A stretch of DNA of 31,551 nucleotides from a virus, in IMG/VR virus record IMGVR_UViG_3300010413_000115, positions 1 to 31,551 of that record, one strand, 5' to 3'. The position numbers and the translations under genes were made by a program. The notes below the pieces were generated by a model. It made no database searches, was not told the origin of the DNA, and saw nothing but the letters and a program-made list of their open reading frames with translations. Below are positions 313 to 27,054 of this stretch, piece by piece. Position 1 is the stretch's first letter; the number at the start of each line of letters is the position of its first letter.

Positions 313-339
313 TTATGCGTAAACTTTAAAGGAGGAAAC

Positions 340-564
340 ATGGCTACAGATTTGGCATTACAGAAAGCAGCGCAAGCATGGTGTAAGGAAACCACGAGCC
401 ACAAAGTAATGGATGCGGAACTGGCCGAAGCCTTTGCTGAGATTCTTGACGAGATTTGGAGTCAGCCGCGGCTTGGGAACGCCACCACTGGCGAGATGCT
501 CGAAGAACTGAAAACTCGGGCAGAGATTCACGGCTATTCCGGGTATCGGACTGTTGACGCATAA
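340..564 (+). CDS. Cassette 1 gene, phage-type small protein
   Basis: A 74-aa protein starting at ATG 340 behind a strong ribosome site (AAAGGAGGAAAC, 328-339). It begins MATDLALQKAAQAWC and contains FAEILDEIW and GNATTGEMLEEL. I recall this pattern from small uncharacterised proteins of proteobacterial phages; no function is known to me. The start at 340 is preferred over 193 because the ribosome site sits right before it and the upstream codons belong to another gene. TAA at 562-564 lies inside the terminal CGCATAAC of the cassette, a typical cassette economy. It is likely transcribed from the phage promoter upstream. Confidence 0.65.
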   Translation: MATDLALQKAAQAWCKETTSHKVMDAELAEAFAEILDEIWSQPRLGNATTGEMLEELKTRAEIHGYSGYRTVDA

Positions 565-685
565 CGATGAAGCTGTGCGGCAGGCAGCCGCCACAACCAA
601 AGAACAAGACAATGACTGACGAAACCGAGAACACTGAACAAAGCCGCGTTGCGGCTGACTGTCCGAACGGGCGCCTTGTTATGCC
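558..685 (+). other. attC1, recombination site of cassette 1
   Basis: The site runs from CGCATAAC (558-565) to GTTATGCC (678-685), about 128 nt. The outer boxes are complementary over GCATAAC/GTTATGC. Inside, GTGCGGCAGGCAGCCGC (near 575-591) pairs imperfectly with the stretch GCGGCTGACTGTCCGAAC (649-666). Recombination would cut after G678. The large loop holds an ATG at 612 that is in frame with the next cassette gene. Confidence 0.75.
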
Positions 686-860
686 GCTACGAATAAACGA
701 GAGCGAGATAAACAGGCGGATAAATGCTGCGATGTGGTCCCAACCAAAGTACGCAGTGAATAGTAATTTCTACCTAAAAGGGTGGGACGCAGCAAAGGTG
801 AGGCCAACTGTGAAAGCGATACTTATCGAGGTCGGTCTTGTTGAGTTGATTGACGCATAA
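612..860 (+). CDS. Cassette 2 gene, unknown small protein
   Basis: The frame is open from ATG 567 (inside attC1) through ATG 612 and ATG 681 to TAA 858-860, which lies in the terminal GCATAAC. The cassette's own portion starts at 681 (MPLRINESEINRRINAAMW) and gives 59 aa ending LVELIDA. I list 612 because the equivalent attC3 carries a start with a similar acidic leader (MTDETENTE here, MSDDETKAN there). No start has a convincing Shine-Dalgarno: AAGAACAAGA lies before 612, none before 681. The protein is mixed helical, soluble, and not recognised. The start is uncertain and the reading frame is likely real. Confidence 0.5.
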   Translation: MTDETENTEQSRVAADCPNGRLVMPLRINESEINRRINAAMWSQPKYAVNSNFYLKGWDAAKVRPTVKAILIEVGLVELIDA

Positions 861-938
861 CGCCAAGTTAAAAGGACGCAGTAGGAACACGAACAGAGCG
901 CCGAGGATTAGGCGCTCCTTTTGAACTTTTTGTTAGGT
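855..938 (+). other. attC2, recombination site of cassette 2
   Basis: This is the clearest attC here. The outer boxes are GCATAAC (855-861) and GTTAGGT (932-938). The inner arm AAGTTAAAAGG (865-875) pairs with CCTTTTGAACTT (917-928) leaving a single unpaired base, the extrahelical base expected of attC stems. A terminal hairpin GAGCGCC (896-902) / GGCGCTC (911-917) closes the site. Cleavage would follow G932. Confidence 0.85.
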
Positions 939-945
939 GTTGATT

Positions 946-1152
946 ATGGGAAACGGGACTCGATACGACCGATTTACAGCAAACGAGATTGACCGTGAAA
1001 GATTTAAAGAGCGGCCAAAGTTTTATGACACTCGGTATTCAAACAGGGCGTGCTCACGATGCGGTGAACGCAAAGGATTAAAAGGGGGTAAGCAGGTTCG
1101 CAACGCAAATGGAACACGCACTTTTATCTGTGCTAACTGTAAAGACACCTAA
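946..1152 (+). CDS. Cassette 3 gene, small zinc-ribbon protein
   Basis: ATG 946 gives 68 aa, strongly basic (MGNGTRYDRF...), with two Cys pairs, CSRC and CANC, separated by about 25 residues, as in a four-Cys zinc ribbon. Such ribbons bind nucleic acid or support a fold; nothing more specific is visible, and the length leaves no room for a catalytic domain. A GTG at 937 is in frame, but 946 is preferred: AGGTG (935-939), made by the cassette's own recombination core GTTAGGTG, is a good ribosome site six bases before it. TAA 1150-1152 lies within CACCTAAC. The function is unknown. Confidence 0.65.
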   Translation: MGNGTRYDRFTANEIDRERFKERPKFYDTRYSNRACSRCGERKGLKGGKQVRNANGTRTFICANCKDT

Positions 1153-1272
1153 CGTTGCGCTTCAGAGGCAAGCCGTAACGACCAACTAAGAAGGATAAAT
1201 GAACTATGAGCGACGATGAAACTAAAGCAAACACCGAGGCGGCTTGTCCGCCTGAAAGCGCCTTGTTATGTG
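1146..1272 (+). other. attC3, recombination site of cassette 3
   Basis: The outer boxes are CACCTAAC (1146-1153) and GTTATGTG (1265-1272). GCGCTTCAG (1157-1165) and AGGCAAGCCG (1166-1175) pair with CGGCTTGTCCGCCTGAAAGCGC (1240-1261) with a few bulged bases. The loop of about 65 nt contains AAGAAGGA (1189-1196) and ATG 1206, in frame with the next cassette gene. Length and layout mirror attC1. Confidence 0.8.
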
Positions 1273-1478
1273 GCGGTATGACCCCTGAGCAGTTTTGTTA
1301 CTGGTTGAATGGATTTGGCGAACTAACTGAAGCACCGCCGACGGAAGAACAATGGAGATCAATCAAAGAGCATTTGCAAACGGTATTTTTTAAGATAACC
1401 CCGGTTGCACCGGGAACGATACCTCCAATGACAGATAGGTGGCAGTGGCCGCACATAATGCCGACTATTACGTGCTGA
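1206..1478 (+). CDS. Cassette 4 gene, phage-type small protein with attC-encoded leader
   Basis: The frame from ATG 1206 to TGA 1476-1478 codes 90 aa. The first 24 residues (MSDDETKANTEAACPPESAL...) are encoded by attC3 of the previous cassette. The cassette's own part starts at ATG 1278 with MTPEQFCYWLNGFGEL, followed by PPTEEQWRSIKEHLQTVFFK. I recall this signature from a widespread small phage protein of proteobacterial phages, usually starting at the MTPEQFCYW methionine, with no known role. The 1206 start has AAGAAGGA about ten bases upstream, while 1278 has only a weak GGCGG. The C-terminus (WQWPHIMPTITC) looks unlike the usual short tail and may be diverged. Confidence 0.6.
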   Translation: MSDDETKANTEAACPPESALLCGGMTPEQFCYWLNGFGELTEAPPTEEQWRSIKEHLQTVFFKITPVAPGTIPPMTDRWQWPHIMPTITC

Positions 1479-1547
1479 CACATAACGCTTTGAATGAAGG
1501 GCCGCGTAAGCGGTCCCAGCGAAGCGATTCTATTCAATTGTTATGTG
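1479..1547 (+). other. attC4, recombination site of cassette 4
   Basis: A short attC of about 69 nt. The outer boxes are CACATAAC (1479-1486) and GTTATGTG (1540-1547). TTGAAT (1490-1495) pairs with ATTCAA (1532-1537), and GGGCCG (1499-1504) with CGGTCCC (1511-1517) around a small loop. Cleavage would follow G1540. Confidence 0.75.
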
Positions 1548-1565
1548 CTGATATTGAGAGAAAAA

Positions 1566-1781
1566 ATGACACATGATGAATTTCATCGTTTAATTTTAAG
1601 GGTGGCAAATGTGACCAGTATAAGATACTGGAACTATTTGAACTATCCACGCAAGCCGCAAGAGTTTGCAATTCTAGGGGCTTACGATATGCCAGACGGG
1701 ATACACAAAGAGCTTATTGATATAGGTTTTGAGTTTGGTGATGATGGGCTTTATCGAATTCACAAAACACAAGGCACATAA
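1566..1781 (+). CDS. Cassette 5 gene, unknown small protein
   Basis: ATG 1566 codes 71 aa (MTHDEFHRLILRVANVTSI... ending RIHKTQGT). GAGAGAAAAA directly before the ATG serves as ribosome site. An in-frame ATG at 1494 lies in attC4 and is less likely, as its extra residues (MKGRVSGPSEAIL) have no ribosome site. TAA 1779-1781 lies within the terminal GCACATAAC. The protein is soluble, aromatic-rich in the middle (RYWNYLNYPRKPQEF) and acidic near the end (IGFEFGDDGLY). I do not recognise it. Confidence 0.6.
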   Translation: MTHDEFHRLILRVANVTSIRYWNYLNYPRKPQEFAILGAYDMPDGIHKELIDIGFEFGDDGLYRIHKTQGT

Positions 1782-1820
1782 CATAGTATTAGACCGTCAC
1801 TGGCGACCTAATATAGAGCG
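1774..1820 (+). other. attC5 and right edge of the array (inferred)
   Basis: GCACATAAC (1774-1782) is the exact inverse complement of the cassette 5 start GTTATGTGC (1540-1548). It is followed by a short stem TATTAG (1787-1792) / CTAATA (1808-1813) with GTC/GAC inside, giving a site under 50 nt. The rejoined phage sequence probably begins after G1820, where GATAA fits the secondary-site consensus GWTMW. G1816 is an alternative. Confidence 0.5.
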
Positions 1821-1837: not shown

Positions 1838-2089
1838 GTGAGTATAAGTAATAAAATAAAACTTGTATTGTATTCGTGCTTATTATTATCTTGCGCGAAA
1901 GCGGAAGAAACGCAAACAGTAATGTTTGTTATTCCGTTATTCGATATCACGTCGGTGACGGTAGATGTATCACCAAACGACGATCAATGGTTAATCGGGA
2001 AGTTTATCACGCAAGAAAAACTCAACCAATTACGCGCAAGTCAATACGATATCGAATTAGTAATACGCAGAAAGGATAATGCATTATGA
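1838..2089 (+). CDS. Putative secreted lipoprotein, unknown
   Basis: GTG 1838 has a strong ribosome site (AAAGGAG, 1823-1829) and codes 83 aa. The N-terminus has two Lys, a hydrophobic stretch and LLLSC followed by AKAEE, which could be a lipobox with Cys as lipid anchor or a signal peptide cleaved after AKA. The mature part is a short beta-rich domain (VMFVIPLFDITSVTVDVS) ending in LVIRRKDNAL. It is therefore probably exported. Its GTG would overlap the stop of the restored upstream gene as GTGA once the cassettes are removed, which fits the phage's compact layout. The end overlaps the next start at 2086. Confidence 0.6.
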   Translation: MSISNKIKLVLYSCLLLSCAKAEETQTVMFVIPLFDITSVTVDVSPNDDQWLIGKFITQEKLNQLRASQYDIELVIRRKDNAL

Positions 2090-2325
2090 AACATTTCACT
2101 CCATTATTTTATGGTTTAGTAACTATTATTGATGCATGGGTAATTTATTTTATTCTTGCCGCTTTTTCACCGCCTATAGGGTTAATAAGTGTATTACTTA
2201 CATTTTCCGGTTTTATATTATGGGTTGTATTGAATATGTCATTGTTCGAATACTGGGATAATAACCGCGAAAAAATTTACAATCATATAAAACAATGTTA
2301 TATAAAATATTCTCGTCGTGAATAG
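2086..2325 (+). CDS. Small two-helix membrane protein
   Basis: The ATG overlaps the previous stop (ATGA at 2086-2089). The 79-aa product has two hydrophobic helices, about residues 8-30 (FYGLVTIIDAWVIYFILAAF) and 33-52 (GLISVLLTFSGFILWVVL), and then a charged C-terminal tail rich in Lys, Arg, Tyr and Asn. The topology would suit a holin or another small inner-membrane phage protein, but it lies far from the lysis genes at 14.1-15.5 kb, so no role is assigned. Confidence 0.65.
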   Translation: MKHFTPLFYGLVTIIDAWVIYFILAAFSPPIGLISVLLTFSGFILWVVLNMSLFEYWDNNREKIYNHIKQCYIKYSRRE

Positions 2326-2549: not shown

Positions 2550-4862
2550 TCACACCATCCCAAACCGACGCGAAATCGTCGTAACGGTTTGAGCTTCTAT
2601 ATAAGCTTTCGTTATTTCTGATACTTGAGTTAGATTGCGAGATATATGTCCCTCCTTAATGAATAGGCGCGGTTTGCCATCGTCCAAGTGTATATAACTA
2701 TTAACGCGTCCGCCTTTTAGATTTGGATGCCAGTCATATCCAAGACTTTGTAATAATTCACGCCTCTTATTTAACGGAAGGTTACGACGTAACTCGAGTA
2801 ACATTCGATCAAACGCTTTTGATGATATCCAACCGCCTGCAAAACCTGGTCTACCCTCTTCAATCGCTTCGATTATTTCTTGTTCGATACTTCCCAACGA
2901 TGCGTTCAAGGCTTCGTCCGTACTCGTCGTTTTAGGTGCGCGATGACAAAGTATAGCGGGGTTCAATTCGTCTGGTATACGATAGGATTGTAGATAATGA
3001 GTAATCGCCGCGTAACCTTCCGTATTTAACCAATGATAGAGGCGTGGGAAATAATCGCCCGCCATACCATCACGTATAATATCGTCGACGGTTTGTTGTG
3101 CGGTATAGAATACACAAAACCGTCGATCATTTCGTGTTTTACGTATCGCGTCCTTGTGGTTACTATTCAACATGAAATTAGCACATATGTCCGCCGTTAC
3201 CTGATCAATACCTTTTAATTGTATCTCAAGACCGTCGCCGCCCGTAATCATCGGCTTAAGTGTTTCTAATACTTCCCTTCGATGGTCAGGTACATAAATA
3301 TCTTCGACACCGATAAAAATTTTATTCAATAACCAACCGTTAAATTTATTATCGATATCCATTGCTTTAGGAAAATGAACGTAGCGCCGTCCAATCGCCG
3401 CCGCCACACATCGAGTAAGCAACGTTTTGCCGTTACCTTCAACACCTTGTATTAACGGTGCCCATTGGAATTTAATACCTTTGTATTGAACAATCGCCGC
3501 CATATAAGCGAGTAAAATTTGTTGGTCGTATTGATTAGGTAATAATTTAGAAAGGTGGTCGAGAAATGGTTGTACATTACCCTGTTTAGAAGGTACATCG
3601 AGCGGTAAATAAACATTTAATAAACTACGCCCGTTTTCGCTAATAATTGCGCCTGGCGTGTCGTTTGGCTTAAAACAAGTTCCCGATACCTTTGGGAATC
3701 GTACCGCTTGTGATTCCGTGAATACTTCCCACGCTTTACGTGTCGTTTTCACGGCGTCACTATCAAGTTGAAATATATAACCACCATATAAAGCGTTAAA
3801 TTGATCGGACTTTAACAACATACCGTTAGGAATAAATATACGATGTAATTCAGTAATATAAACGCAATTTTTAAATAATTCGAGTTGTTGCGGCGCGGCT
3901 AAATATTGGAATCCTTCAACAAGTAACGGTTCAATTTTATCAGGTAATATGGGCTTTATATCGGTTGATTTCCCTAGTACATCGCGCTGCATTGAAACAG
4001 CGTTTAATATTGTTCTTTGCATATAATCATCGCGCCGCCACTTATCACGAACCAATGATGAACGAAACATAATTCGTTTGACGCGTTCACAATCTTTGCC
4101 CGTCCAAAATGCTAGGTGTTGTGCTAAAGCCGCATCCGCTGCCGATTCGTCATAAGAGTTTGTTTCATGCGGGTAACAATCGTTCAAAACTTCTTTGTTT
4201 GCTATCCATAAATCTTTGAAAGACGCACGACCACCGAACGCACTTGCCGCGCTTGTCGATTTTAACGCACGATCAATTAATACATCGTCGTCTTTGGGTC
4301 CGTTCCATTCCGGACAAGGTTTGTCCGTCCATTCATGTGATGCGATATGTGTTTTTGAAGGAAAATAAAGCGTTATAATATTGGTTAATTCGGTTAATAG
4401 TTGGGTACCGGGTGAACCGATAGCATTTATGCCTGTTAACGCAACGAAACGTCCTTGTGTATAAAGTTCGATTCCCAATTGTGTATTTTTACAACCGTGT
4501 GATGGCGGGTTAACTGCTGTACCAATAATATGCAAGCCTTCGCATGATTGCGAAACCTCAATATATGCGCCCGATAATCGTTGCATTAAATCCATAGCAA
4601 TAACAGACCATTGATTACCGATCAAACAGTGATCAATATCAATGAAAAAAAATGGATCGTTTTCGGTAAAAACAAAACCGATTCCGTATGTTCCACCCAA
4701 CATATCGACCATCGATTTTGCGGTTTGATAATCTAACCAAATATTAGAATTGTGCGCGTCCGCAATTTCGAATGTTCGATAATCAATCGGTATTTTATCT
4801 ATTTTGTTTTCTCGTTGTATTGGCTGCCATAAAATATATTGATTATAATTCGTTATCATCAA
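2550..4862 (-). CDS. Primase-helicase (prim-pol plus SF3-type helicase)
   Basis: The protein has 770 aa. The N-terminal 170 residues look like a bifunctional primase-polymerase domain: FFIDID (metal-binding Asp75 and Asp77), SQSCEGLH (104-111) and a GRFVALTG motif near 137-144. The middle, about 190-440, is a linker and helicase N-terminal region. The C-terminal half holds a ring-helicase core with Walker A GVEGNGKT (473-480), Walker B KIFIGVED (514-521), a sensor segment FMLNSNHKDA (563-572) and Arg pair 580-581. It would synthesise primers and unwind DNA at the phage fork with the polymerase at 11069. The start overlaps the preceding regulator gene's stop (ATGA at 4859-4862). An adjacent Met at codon 2 is equally possible. 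Confidence 0.85.
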   Translation of the reverse strand: MMITNYNQYILWQPIQRENKIDKIPIDYRTFEIADAHNSNIWLDYQTAKSMVDMLGGTYGIGFVFTENDPFFFIDIDHCLIGNQWSVIAMDLMQRLSGAYIEVSQSCEGLHIIGTAVNPPSHGCKNTQLGIELYTQGRFVALTGINAIGSPGTQLLTELTNIITLYFPSKTHIASHEWTDKPCPEWNGPKDDDVLIDRALKSTSAASAFGGRASFKDLWIANKEVLNDCYPHETNSYDESAADAALAQHLAFWTGKDCERVKRIMFRSSLVRDKWRRDDYMQRTILNAVSMQRDVLGKSTDIKPILPDKIEPLLVEGFQYLAAPQQLELFKNCVYITELHRIFIPNGMLLKSDQFNALYGGYIFQLDSDAVKTTRKAWEVFTESQAVRFPKVSGTCFKPNDTPGAIISENGRSLLNVYLPLDVPSKQGNVQPFLDHLSKLLPNQYDQQILLAYMAAIVQYKGIKFQWAPLIQGVEGNGKTLLTRCVAAAIGRRYVHFPKAMDIDNKFNGWLLNKIFIGVEDIYVPDHRREVLETLKPMITGGDGLEIQLKGIDQVTADICANFMLNSNHKDAIRKTRNDRRFCVFYTAQQTVDDIIRDGMAGDYFPRLYHWLNTEGYAAITHYLQSYRIPDELNPAILCHRAPKTTSTDEALNASLGSIEQEIIEAIEEGRPGFAGGWISSKAFDRMLLELRRNLPLNKRRELLQSLGYDWHPNLKGGRVNSYIHLDDGKPRLFIKEGHISRNLTQVSEITKAYIEAQTVTTISRRFGMV

Positions 4863-5899: not shown

Positions 5900-6186
5900 A
5901 ATTTACCCCTAAAGTGGTTATTAAAATGTTCCTCTAATTCTTCCGGCGTAGGAATATTCGAATTGTCGAAACAGAATTTACTACCCTTACGATGTTCGAA
6001 TAAATAACCGCCACAATTACAAATATTTGTTCGTCCTTTTTCGTTTTTTATTCTGTATTTATCTGGCTTAAATATTCCGCTGCATTGCGAACATTTAAAC
6101 GACTTATCTGTTTTATACGCTCTTAATTGTTAATCGGTAAATGAAATTCGTTGACGACATCGATTACAACGATAGGGAACGCTCAT
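5896..6186 (-). pseudogene. Zinc-ribbon protein gene with an in-frame TAA
   Basis: Read as one frame of 97 codons, this encodes MSVPYRCNRCRQRISFTD, then TAA at codon 19 (6132-6130), then QLRAYKTDKSFKCSQCSGIF and on to HFNNHFRGKL. The first CxxC lies before the stop and the second CxxC (37-40) after it, so the stop cuts a four-Cys ribbon in two. A further CNC and GSKFC follow. The layout recalls small zinc-ribbon proteins of proteobacterial phages, in which the two CxxC pairs are continuous (recollection, not searched). TAA differs by one base from GAA (Glu) or CAA (Gln). No ATG, GTG or TTG follows in frame, so restart is unlikely. Both ends keep the operon's TAATG and ATGA overlaps. It is a nonsense mutation, a sequencing error or a readthrough site. 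Confidence 0.75.
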
Positions 6187-6395
6187 TACCTGCACCAGAT
6201 GTTTTTAATATTTGTAATAATTACGCCTATCGCTACCATTATCGATAATTTAATGAACCCAATTAGTATTATTAAATTTAACAATTCGTTTTTCCCATAA
6301 CGAAACGTTATAAAATCTTTATCGAATGAACCTAATATATACGAAATAATAACAATTACACTCAATAACAATAAAGTATTGCGTATTTTTATCAT
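6186..6395 (-). CDS. Small two-helix membrane protein
   Basis: The 69-aa protein has two hydrophobic helices, about residues 6-23 (NTLLLLSVIVIISYILGS) and 38-61 (NLIILIGFIKLSIMVAIGVI), joined by a charged loop (FDKDFITFRYGKNE). The start overlaps the helicase stop (ATGA at 6392-6395) and the stop overlaps the next ATG (TAATG). It sits inside the replication operon, so it may anchor replication proteins to the membrane or simply be a small accessory protein. The family is not recognised. Confidence 0.6.
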   Translation of the reverse strand: MIKIRNTLLLLSVIVIISYILGSFDKDFITFRYGKNELLNLIILIGFIKLSIMVAIGVIITNIKNIWCR

Positions 6396-8095: not shown

Positions 8096-8965
8096 ATGAA
8101 TAGTATCAATTTAAACGTGGAATTAACGGTCGAATCATTGCAACAAGTTGCAGGAATGTTAGAAGATTTAGCTATTATTATATCGGGAAATACTATACCG
8201 CGGGACATTCAAACCTCATCGGTACCACAACAAAACGACCTGGGTGCACCGGCACCACAACAAAACGACCTGGGTGCACCGGCACCACAACAAAACGACC
8301 TGGGTGCACCGGTACCACAACAAAACGACCTGGGTGCACCGGTACCACAACAAAACGACCTGGGTGCGCCGGTACCGTTTGTATCCCCTCCCACTGGGAC
8401 GAAATTGGATAAAGCCGGACTTCCCCACGATCCTCGTATACATGCTAAAAGTAAATCGATTACAGGGGATGGTTATTGGAGATACAAAAAAGGCGTCGAT
8501 AGGGAACATTTTGTTCCAATGATTGAGGCGGAATTACGTACACTAATGGGTATTACTGAACCGCAGACCGCCCCAGTACCGCCGCAGGCCGCCCAGACCG
8601 CCCATGCCGCCCCAGTACCGCCGCAGGCCGCCCAGACCGCCCATGCCGCCCAGACCGCCCATGCCGCCCCAGTACCGCCGCAGGCCGCCCAGACCGCTCA
8701 TGCCGCCCCAGTACCGCCGCAGACCGCCCCAGTACCGCCGCAGGCCGCCCAGACCGCCCCAGTACCGCCGCAGGCCGCCCCAGTACCGGCCACTTTCCCT
8801 GAAATGCTAATTAAGGTTTCACGATTAAAACAAGCGGGAAAATTAACCGATGCTCAGGTAGCAGAGGCAAACGCCGAAATCGGTATTGCACAATTGCCGT
8901 TATTAGCCGCCCGTCCTGATTTGATTCCGGCATATAACGCCGCTATCGAACGAAGGGCGCAATAA
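8096..8965 (+). CDS. Repeat-rich phage protein of the replication block
   Basis: The 289-aa protein has four parts. An N-terminal 40 residues of beta and helix (MNSINLNVELTVESL). Five exact-length repeats of PQQNDLGAPV or close variants (about residues 43-92). A compact conserved-looking domain with GLPHDPRIHAKSKS and GDGYWRYKKGVDREH, which I recall from phage proteins written as LPWDARIHxxxK with WRxKRGV. Then a long Pro-Ala-Gln low-complexity stretch (about 157-231) before a C-terminal helical region (MLIKVSRLKQAGKLTDAQ). GGAG before ATG 8096 gives the start. It precedes the Cas4-like nuclease with a TAATG overlap. The function is unknown; it is perhaps a replication or recombination accessory, with the repeats as flexible linkers. 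Confidence 0.7.
   Translation: MNSINLNVELTVESLQQVAGMLEDLAIIISGNTIPRDIQTSSVPQQNDLGAPAPQQNDLGAPAPQQNDLGAPVPQQNDLGAPVPQQNDLGAPVPFVSPPTGTKLDKAGLPHDPRIHAKSKSITGDGYWRYKKGVDREHFVPMIEAELRTLMGITEPQTAPVPPQAAQTAHAAPVPPQAAQTAHAAQTAHAAPVPPQAAQTAHAAPVPPQTAPVPPQAAQTAPVPPQAAPVPATFPEMLIKVSRLKQAGKLTDAQVAEANAEIGIAQLPLLAARPDLIPAYNAAIERRAQ
8221..8370 (+). repeat. Five tandem 30-bp repeats
   Basis: Five copies of a 30-bp unit run head to tail from 8221, nearly identical at DNA level: GGCACC and GGTACC alternate at the joins and the last copy has one further change. Each unit codes ten residues (PQQNDLGAPV). There are no spacers, so this is not a CRISPR array. Confidence 0.9.
8561..8788 (+). repeat. GC-rich Pro-Ala-Gln repeat tract
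   Basis: Short modules such as GCCCCAGTACCGCCGCAG and GCCCAGACCGCCCATGCC recur in mixed order, coding VPPQA, AQTA and HAAP units. The tract is far richer in GC than the surrounding AT-rich phage DNA. Confidence 0.85.
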
Positions 8966-24156: not shown

Positions 24157-27054
24157 TTAATAATACTCGTTTTCTAATGGGTCGAAAATTGAATCAACAA
24201 TATTTCCAAAATCTTTCAAAAACGCGTCTTTTGTTTCGTATCGTATCAGTTTGTTTTCGGGCGGTTGCGCCCCTTCCCTTCCTGCATTGATCCCAAAATG
24301 AACCGTTACGCCACGCCCTAACAATTCAAGCGCTTGACTATACCAGTTGACTGAATCAACATTAGCGTAATGTTTCTTGCCTAGAAAATGCGTTGTATAC
24401 AATGTCACGACCTCTTCACATAATACCCGTATTTCGTTAGTAATTACGCCGCCGTTACTCTTAAGTATATAGCCACAAATCAGCATATTGTCACGCATGA
24501 TAAAATGTTTTTGTAACAATCGATCCGGATATGTTTCCTTGTCTTTTTGTAGTAGCGGATAATTACGGTTAAATCGTCCGCGCCGAATATCTTCCGATAA
24601 GTATCCCGTGTGAGCTATTGTTACATCAAACAATACAATAACCTCGCCCGGTCCTTTATTAAGTCCTAATTCGGGATGTTCATGAATCATGCCATAAAAT
24701 CGCATTGTATCGCCTTTATACGGGCGATTCCTAAATAATCTAACCGGCATATCAGGCGCAAAATTCGTATCACAAGCAAAGTGCATTTGGCGTACGCCAT
24801 AACCGTTAAAACAATTTTCGCGTAAATATTTTTGAATATTGAAACCGTCGATTACTTTTTCATCGGTGTCGATCCAAAAAACCCATTCCATTTCACATTC
24901 TGCTAGTCCCGCATTCCTTCCTGTTTCAAATCCTTCCGACCTGACGTCCGGACCATTATCGACAATAAATACGTTTCGATCAGAATATTGACTAATAATG
25001 TGTTTAGCGGCTTCATTCATTCCTGTATCAACGATTACAATTTCGTCGGCGATATGTTCGAGCGAACGCAAACACCAGTGTAATTGTTCCTCAGAATTTG
25101 GCCCCGCCATTAAACACGCCGACACGGTTTGTCGTGGGCGTTGTAACGTCAATTTACGATCCATATTAATCGGTTTCGACGGTTTACCATTAACGGTATA
25201 TTCGATAATCCACCATCCTGCCGGTTTATTTAAAAATCGTGTATTACCGTTATACATCGACCCAACAGCAAGATTTGCTTTATTCGAAAACATGTCGCGA
25301 ATATCATGCATATCGAAATGCCAAATATGTGCACGCCAAGGATATGATTTGTAGCTATCGTATTCCCACGGACCGTAAGGGACAGTTATATAAACTTTCG
25401 CGCCTGGCGCTAAATTCTTTTCTAACTCGTCAATAAATGCCCATGGTTCGGGTACATGCTCGAGAATTTCTTGTACGACTAGACAATCATAATTTTTTGT
25501 ATTGATTTCGTGAAACTTATCCACTGTTGAAAATCTCAACATATCAGGGTATTTCGCTTTCCCCTCGCTTACGTATTCTTTCGCAATTTCGATACCGTGG
25601 TAATCAATGTCAATACCCGTTACATATCGGTCGTTTCCAATCGCGTTACTTGTATGGATAGCATACGACCCATGGGCGCACCCGTAATCAAGAATATTTT
25701 TTATATCAGTGTGCGTATTCAAAAAACTGGTTAAAATACCTAACCGCTGTTCATGCACTGTAAATGAAAAAACAGTCTTGTCGTGAGTACTTCCAATATG
25801 TTCGTATTGTTTTTTATACCCGTCCGTTTCTTCCATAAAATTGTAGTTTTGTAATTCTTCGACCACATCGGCGGCCGGTTCGTATCCGCGCTTAATCATT
25901 TCTTTCGCCGCGACAATATCAGAATTTCGAATAAAATCCCGTATTAACGAATCGTTATTTTTACTAAACGACTCGATTTGCGTTACGAATGTTTCTTGCC
26001 ATTCCTTAGCAATCTCGCGCCAATTATAACTTTGCGAGTGGTTAATACCTTCATAGGAAGTACCCGAAAATAATTTGATATCGGTACAAATTTCGTAAAC
26101 TCGTTTTACAAAATTTTCGACGTATTGTTCGTTTTGATTGATTAAATATCCCGCCCATTGGTTAATGGTTTCAGGTAACGCACCACGCGCCGTCGTTACA
26201 ATTGGTAATCCGCACGCTTGTGCCTCAATTGCTGAAATGCAAGACACTTCATTAAATGTCGGCATAATCGGTGACGGTGTTGGATAAACATAACAACCCG
26301 CCGTTAGATAATGTTTATATAACTCTTCTTTGCTCAATTCACCCAGTACGATAATTGATTCACCGTATTTTTTAATTTCTTGATTGCAGAAATCATAAAA
26401 TGTTTTGAAATGATCAACCGGGTTGTTATATCCGGCAACATACAATTTAAAATTCGGATTTTTTTCAAGTAAACGCGGAAAAATTTCAGTTAACAAAACA
26501 TCGAGTCCGCGTTCAGGACGCGCAGCATAAATTAGCTTGTTATAGTCACGATGTGCGACGGTTTCACGTAATGAATTAATTAAATCTAAATCAACACCGT
26601 TTCGTGTCACCATAAAAACGTCATTATCTATGTTATGAACGCTTTCATACTGTTCTTTATGATAATTTGAAACGAGCGCGATACGATCCACGTTCCAAAG
26701 TACTCCACGTATAACACCATCGTTGCGACCTAATGCTAGGTCGTGCTGCCATAAAACATTCAAACGGCTATTAGTGGGATTTACGAACACTTCAGGGGAA
26801 CGTTGCACAATAGTGACATCGTGTGGAACGGTACGAATATAATCTAATCCCTGAGAATAAGGAGCATATAACACGCCGTCAATCATTGCCGGTTTATCGG
26901 TATTAGTGAACATGGTAACGTTATTTCCTAATGCGGCCAATTCTCGCCCCATGTAATAACCAGCCGTTTCAGAACCACCAAGACCTTTTGTTTTGATTGT
27001 GTTGCCGTCAAAAGGTAAACCAGGTACTAATATTGCGATATCAAGTTTTTGCAT
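24157..27054 (-). CDS. Three-domain glycosyltransferase-methyltransferase-glycosyltransferase
   Basis: The 965-aa protein fuses three enzymes. Residues 1-370 look like a GT-B glycosyltransferase of family GT4 type (GLGGSETAGYYMGRELA, AARPERGLDVLL, and the E-x7-E motif Glu269/Glu277 in NEVSCISAIEAQACGLP). Residues about 420-620 form a SAM-dependent methyltransferase (LDYGCAHGSY 455-464, GIDIDYHGIEIA, QEILEHVPEP). Residues about 640-965 form a GT-A, GT2-type glycosyltransferase (EIVIVDTG, GRNAGLAE, and DTD at 729-731). A linker of about 50 residues, helical, joins the first two. It would transfer and methylate sugars on an unknown acceptor, perhaps a virion protein, DNA or host glycan. It lies between head-tail connector and appendage genes. 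Confidence 0.85.
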   Translation of the reverse strand: MQKLDIAILVPGLPFDGNTIKTKGLGGSETAGYYMGRELAALGNNVTMFTNTDKPAMIDGVLYAPYSQGLDYIRTVPHDVTIVQRSPEVFVNPTNSRLNVLWQHDLALGRNDGVIRGVLWNVDRIALVSNYHKEQYESVHNIDNDVFMVTRNGVDLDLINSLRETVAHRDYNKLIYAARPERGLDVLLTEIFPRLLEKNPNFKLYVAGYNNPVDHFKTFYDFCNQEIKKYGESIIVLGELSKEELYKHYLTAGCYVYPTPSPIMPTFNEVSCISAIEAQACGLPIVTTARGALPETINQWAGYLINQNEQYVENFVKRVYEICTDIKLFSGTSYEGINHSQSYNWREIAKEWQETFVTQIESFSKNNDSLIRDFIRNSDIVAAKEMIKRGYEPAADVVEELQNYNFMEETDGYKKQYEHIGSTHDKTVFSFTVHEQRLGILTSFLNTHTDIKNILDYGCAHGSYAIHTSNAIGNDRYVTGIDIDYHGIEIAKEYVSEGKAKYPDMLRFSTVDKFHEINTKNYDCLVVQEILEHVPEPWAFIDELEKNLAPGAKVYITVPYGPWEYDSYKSYPWRAHIWHFDMHDIRDMFSNKANLAVGSMYNGNTRFLNKPAGWWIIEYTVNGKPSKPINMDRKLTLQRPRQTVSACLMAGPNSEEQLHWCLRSLEHIADEIVIVDTGMNEAAKHIISQYSDRNVFIVDNGPDVRSEGFETGRNAGLAECEMEWVFWIDTDEKVIDGFNIQKYLRENCFNGYGVRQMHFACDTNFAPDMPVRLFRNRPYKGDTMRFYGMIHEHPELGLNKGPGEVIVLFDVTIAHTGYLSEDIRRGRFNRNYPLLQKDKETYPDRLLQKHFIMRDNMLICGYILKSNGGVITNEIRVLCEEVVTLYTTHFLGKKHYANVDSVNWYSQALELLGRGVTVHFGINAGREGAQPPENKLIRYETKDAFLKDFGNIVDSIFDPLENEYY

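Follow-up and report, generated by a model that had tools for sequence, protein, structure and literature searches.

A cluster of five head-to-tail integron cassettes, each of 254-366 bp, occupies positions 313-1816 of a 31,551 bp IMG/VR virus record that was analysed as a whole (hereafter the window; classed as linear and possibly a fragment). The array is a CALIN, that is, a cluster of attC sites without an integrase, located in a phage, an assignment that has its limits in the closeness of the array to the contig end and in the weak score of one site, attC 4, with the covariance model alone. The five cassettes very probably entered a phage gene at a secondary site that is not an attI.

Phage context of the array

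The window encodes a tape measure protein, minor tail, tail fibre and neck proteins, a helicase, an exonuclease, a ssDNA-binding protein, a DNA polymerase and a primase-polymerase (prim-pol) of the NrS-1 type, which serves as the marker of this phage group (Table 1). To the right of the array lie the tape measure, tail, neck, polymerase, helicase and prim-pol genes of a tailed phage, and to its left one recognised phage gene fragment and one short ORF, so that phage genes do stand on both sides as first described, with structural and replication genes on the right. The prim-pol and the polymerase are also what the window phage has in common with its IMG/VR relatives, at about 40-64% identity. 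A megablast search with the first 12 kb of the window against known phages gave no match, nor did an Rfam scan of the window. The two small genes directly to the right of the array have no family match, and a search for relatives of the first of them found none, which is a weak negative. Elsewhere in the window a 965 aa protein (24157-27054, minus strand) that adjoins the tail genes combines glycosyltransferase and methyltransferase matches, and short Ala/Pro/Gln-rich repeats form a run at 8569-8800 inside the gene at 8096-8965.

Anatomy of the cassettes and their attC sites

Each of the five units contains one short plus-strand gene, and the sequence at one end of the unit is the exact inverse complement of that at the other for 7-9 bases. 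This agrees with the preliminary description, the bounds of which are corrected here; the right edge in particular moves from 1820 to 1816. The stop codon TAA falls inside the R'' box in four of the five cassettes. The genes had further been said to end at RYYYAAC, but only the R'' box of cassette 3 (ACCTAAC) strictly fits this consensus, the other four reading (A/G)CATAAC and departing from it at the third base. Throughout, R'' boxes ending in AAC and R' boxes starting with GTT are paired around inner L boxes.

Table 1 Features of the window and relatives of cassette 1 in other phage contigs
Feature	Position	Strand	Details
Phage gene fragment, N-terminal 40-41 codons	193..312	+	KTTLNxIRxHxPCxDGWxKLL family; tblastn to phages; phrog_18326 over residues 2-44
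Cassette 1	313-678	+	ends GTTATGCGT/ACGCATAAC; gene 340-564, 74 aa
attC 1	558-685	+	R1 25.6 bits, E 1e-4
Cassette 2	679-932	+	ends GTTATGC/GCATAAC; gene 681-860, frame open back into attC 1
attC 2	854-939	+	R1 33.9 bits, E 8e-7
Cassette 3	933-1265	+	ends GTTAGGTGT/ACACCTAAC; gene 946-1152
attC 3	1146-1272	+	R1 15.9 bits, E 0.026; bottom strand folds with outer stem
Cassette 4	1266-1540	+	ends GTTATGTG/CACATAAC; gene 1278-1478, or from 1206 inside attC 3
attC 4	1479-1547	+	R1 11.2 bits, E 0.39, weak alone; fold z -4.8
Cassette 5	1541-1816	+	ends GTTATGTGC/GCACATAAC; gene 1566-1781, 71 aa
attC 5, R'' and body without R'	1774..1816	+	cut at junction; no R1 match as is
Lipoprotein-like small gene	1838-2089	+	sequence reading, ORF list; no PHROG match
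Membrane-protein-like small gene	2086-2325	+	sequence reading, ORF list; no PHROG match
NrS-1-type primase-polymerase	2550..4862	-	Pfam PF22763 and PF19263; phrog_1829, E 8e-151
Cassette 1 family, L103	4973-5232		
Cassette 1 family, L112	about 5960-6224		
Cassette 1 family, L114	5973-6226		
Cassette 1 family, L118	5963-6247		

The attC sites were searched for with a covariance model, R1, which was built from 35 attC sites of arrays beside intI, none of them from the window. The sources were 20 stretches beside intI in genomes of the order to which a Methylobacter MAG (G008) belongs, together with one contig of that MAG; exact-ended arrays were located first and their attC sites were loop-trimmed, and the resulting E-values are rough. 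Over both strands of the 31.5-kb window R1 gives exactly four matches at E <= 10, all on the plus strand and within 990 bp, where at least two close attC sites define a CALIN, and there are none elsewhere in the window. They start at 558, 854, 1146 and 1479 and are thus the very sites at which attC-like folds between the units had been anticipated (558, 855, 1146 and 1479). As controls, R1 recovers three sites at the published CALIN of Tetrasphaera phage TJE1, which the chain test described below recovers as well, and two sites of plasmid R388.

The folds of the individual sites differ in strength. attC 4 has the strongest single-strand fold, which none of 200 shuffles equals, and the other three fold only moderately better than their shuffles (z -0.8 to -1.7). 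In the minimum-energy fold of the bottom strand the hairpin is clear for attC 3 and attC 4, and only its inner parts are formed in attC 1 and attC 2. In a strict chain test, which requires exact 7-nt ends and a folded attC for every link, the window reaches a chain of five, whereas the maximum in 400 dinucleotide-preserving shuffles is three (3/400). A chain of matching ends without the fold test was rejected as a sole criterion: shuffles then sometimes reach 5-7, so that end symmetry alone is not decisive. The earlier claim that such symmetry and site structure prove an integron origin therefore holds where the symmetry is combined with the folding of the attC sites and the R1 matches, in which combination it is decisive, and not for the symmetry by itself. 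The modest folds of three sites and the end-match chains of some shuffles are also what could be cited for a chance origin, in which hairpins or terminators that lie between small phage genes merely look like attC sites. This explanation is refuted by the strict chain test and by R1, an independent model that finds only the four sites here and has one match per 224 kb and one per 953 kb in related phages, and the probability left to it is negligible. Both of the matches in related phages (G006 and L282) adjoin exact cassette ends, and for this reason they look like real cassettes.

The fifth attC site has no R' of its own, because the array ends at the insertion junction and the R' that belongs to this site sits at the left end of cassette 5. 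Once rejoined with this R' from 1540, attC 5 folds like an intact attC, with its end at G1816. A missing R' is expected where the terminal cassette of an array has been inserted outside attI, and the last cassette of the L103 array behaves in the same way on rejoining.

That the contig carries no integron integrase, as had been noted, was borne out by a TIGR02249 search of the record, possibly a fragment, and by tblastn with two IntI proteins, neither of which finds one in the window.

Edges of the array and the interrupted gene

The left edge is a canonical G/TT crossover at 312/313, which together with the end of the rejoined attC 5 at G1816 places the array at 313-1816. The phage gene on the left is cut after codon 41 and its frame continues into cassette 1. 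Its family is widespread in phages and is full-length in the viral contigs inspected; in the relative L308 the corresponding position is taken by a complete 234 aa gene of this family, which converges with the prim-pol gene. No match to the 3' remainder of the interrupted gene was found in the window among the matches listed, so that either a deletion or a previous truncation has to be invoked. The peptide 'DRHWR' just past the last R'' was considered as a remnant of the gene and rejected; it has no tblastn support among the matches listed and is put down to chance, since attC 5 accounts better for this stretch. A search of related phages for the same site, which the preliminary description had proposed, thus yielded the whole gene in L308 but no near relative with an empty site, and a search for relatives of the left-flank 21-mer also found none; both are weak negatives.

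An assembly chimera, in which a piece of a bacterial integron became fused to phage sequence, could be suspected from the start of the array only 313 bases from the contig end and from its G+C content of 0.47 against a mean of 0.396 elsewhere, a value still within the range of the contig. It is nevertheless highly improbable, given that phage sequence flanks the array on both sides, that both edges coincide with cassette crossover points and that the left-flank gene is whole in L308, where its position with respect to prim-pol matches. Two related phages, L282 and G006, also have cassettes, and another phage shows the same array and flanks across four assemblies, and this comparative evidence, as far as sequence comparison reaches, argues against chimeric assembly.

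The array could instead have been acquired ready-made, by homologous or illegitimate recombination with a phage or prophage and without an integrase acting at the site. An interrupted gene that lacks its 3' part is what an illegitimate exchange may leave behind, and the arrays of other phages are possible donors, but the edges lie exactly at crossover points, with G/TT on the left and a reconstituted attC end on the right, and such a block transfer is considered unlikely.

Genes carried by the cassettes

The cassette 3 gene encodes CxxC...CxxC pairs and is zinc-ribbon-like, with matches to zinc-ribbon-type Pfam families that stay below their cut-offs; its product looks like a small zinc ribbon. 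The cassette 4 gene belongs to the phage family phrog_35763 (E 2e-16), and its relatives are plain phage genes, some of them in lysis regions, which by eye have no adjoining attC. When the cassette proteins were compared with those of plasmids and phages, relatives were found for cassette 4 only. NCBIfam and PADLOC have no family for any of the five, and no homolog of the five genes was found in the 22 bacterial stretches searched. The AlphaFold model of the cassette 1 protein has a mean pLDDT of 69, and at this confidence a fold search was not warranted.

The loops of attC 1 (614-681) and attC 3 (1206-1278) contain start codons from which a frame crosses R' and enters the following cassette's gene, and the same is seen in an attC loop of L282 (490-560). 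The first count, over 19 and 66 junctions, seemed striking, and in a larger one start codons lie inside attC at 8/36 junctions of phage arrays against 3/101 (p 0.001), the junctions being non-independent. Exchanging attC sites among junctions leaves the number about the same (P 0.33). A special feature of phage attC sites was therefore rejected, and the start codons are ascribed to open frames and tight packing.

Cassettes in other phages

Relatives of the 74 aa cassette 1 protein, at 70-85% identity, are present in four other phage contigs with attC arrays (Table 1). Two of the carriers are the viral contigs G209 (47.8 kb) and G211 (66.4 kb). A third is a phage that was recovered as four contigs from different metagenomes, among them G210 and G212, which agree at 98.6-100% identity across the array and its flanks on either side. 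The fourth, a contig of 31 kb, belongs to the Methylobacter MAG and encodes terminase, portal and major head protein. The cassette ends are exact over 7-8 bases in three of the four contigs, and those of G209 differ by one mismatch (GTTATACG vs CGCATAAC). No intI was found in the viral records that carry the family; the Methylobacter MAG has two, on other contigs. Three further viral contigs (L117, L119 and L120) hold the gene without an adjoining attC, as judged by eye. The recurrence of cassette 1 suggests that phages share cassettes, and the four other phages are, on the basis of their different marker genes, apparently unrelated to the window phage. In each of these four the family occupies the final position of its array, and in the window the first. 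It may represent a founder insertion in front of which the others were added.

Cassettes were also noted in several viral and phage-like contigs. The 66-kb viral contig IMGVR_UViG_3300020171_000022 has two divergent arrays (L128, 16193-19422, minus strand; L129, 5420-7547, plus strand), with about 16 attC sites by R1 and no intI. A phage-like contig of the Methylobacter MAG (G008:C212) has about 11 attC sites immediately ahead of its terminase genes (L121, 5124-10318), and one of its cassettes codes for the phage protein phrog_322. Among the related prim-pol phages, L282 (218-760; IMGVR_UViG_3300010413_000258) and L093 (9727-10084) have one or two cassettes of their own, from which it seems that this phage group acquired cassettes more than once.

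It is tentatively proposed, as a possible rather than a probable picture, that environmental phages exchange their own small accessory genes as cassettes by means of host integrases, with a cassette pool common to unrelated phages and with phage genes becoming cassettes. Cassettes borne by phages would offer integron cargo a route between cells that share no plasmid. The shared cassette, and the cassette genes that recur as plain phage genes, point to a flow that does not run solely from bacteria to phages; a two-way flow would bear on the open question of cassette origin.

Proposed formation of the array

As established for integrons, the integrase acts on the bottom strand of a cassette's attC, folded into its hairpin, and recombines it with a target site, here presumably a secondary site in phage DNA. 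A host integron integrase acting in trans probably placed the first cassette of the window between G312 and the base that is now at 1817; an empty site would be expected to read G312 followed directly by AGCGATAAAGG. In one plausible host order, 85 of the 151 genomes sampled have integrases above the family cut-off. Further cassettes would then have entered by attC x attC recombination, and replication of the phage would carry and spread them. The cassettes may still be mobile and their genes expressed, and a host with a compatible integrase could excise cassettes from the array or add more.

Comparison with known systems

The preliminary description regarded a phage that carries and could transfer a cassette array as unusual, and saw no integrase gene. 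The cassettes and the lack of an integrase stand, but the class is not new, as Qi et al. (2023; PMC9892861) describe 17 CALINs from a set of 10,705 phage genomes and demonstrate recombination with IntI1 for five of the six phage attC sites that they assayed. A literature search, limited to the parts of the sources available, found nothing closer than that study and no description of one cassette that recurs in several different phages, or of cassette genes with relatives among phage genes that lack attC.

Arrays that lie beside intI in bacterial chromosomes, as in the order of the Methylobacter MAG, have the same attC boxes, stem layout and end pairing as the window. Unlike them, the window has no intI and no attI, its cassettes are short and its five cassette genes lack homologs in the bacterial stretches searched. 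Frames stay open through R' at 17/36 junctions of the pooled phage arrays against 21/101 of the chromosomal ones, pooled counts that are not independent.

The Vibrio anguillarum phage Va_90-11-286_p16 also carries cassettes, but its type includes intI and derives from the host's own integron, a piece of which left with the excising prophage (Qi et al. 2023; PMC9892861), whereas the window has no intI and no sign of imprecise excision. The closest likeness is to phage CALINs such as that of phage TJE1, which also have attC sites without intI, in one direction and with one small gene per cassette (Qi et al. 2023; PMC9892861). As far as these are described there, the window differs in that its five closed-end cassettes lie inside a still recognisable phage gene, in that one cassette is common to four other phage contigs, and in that it belongs to a different phage group, with an NrS-1-type prim-pol. 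Phage cassette arrays are known but rare, and the window is one more example of them.
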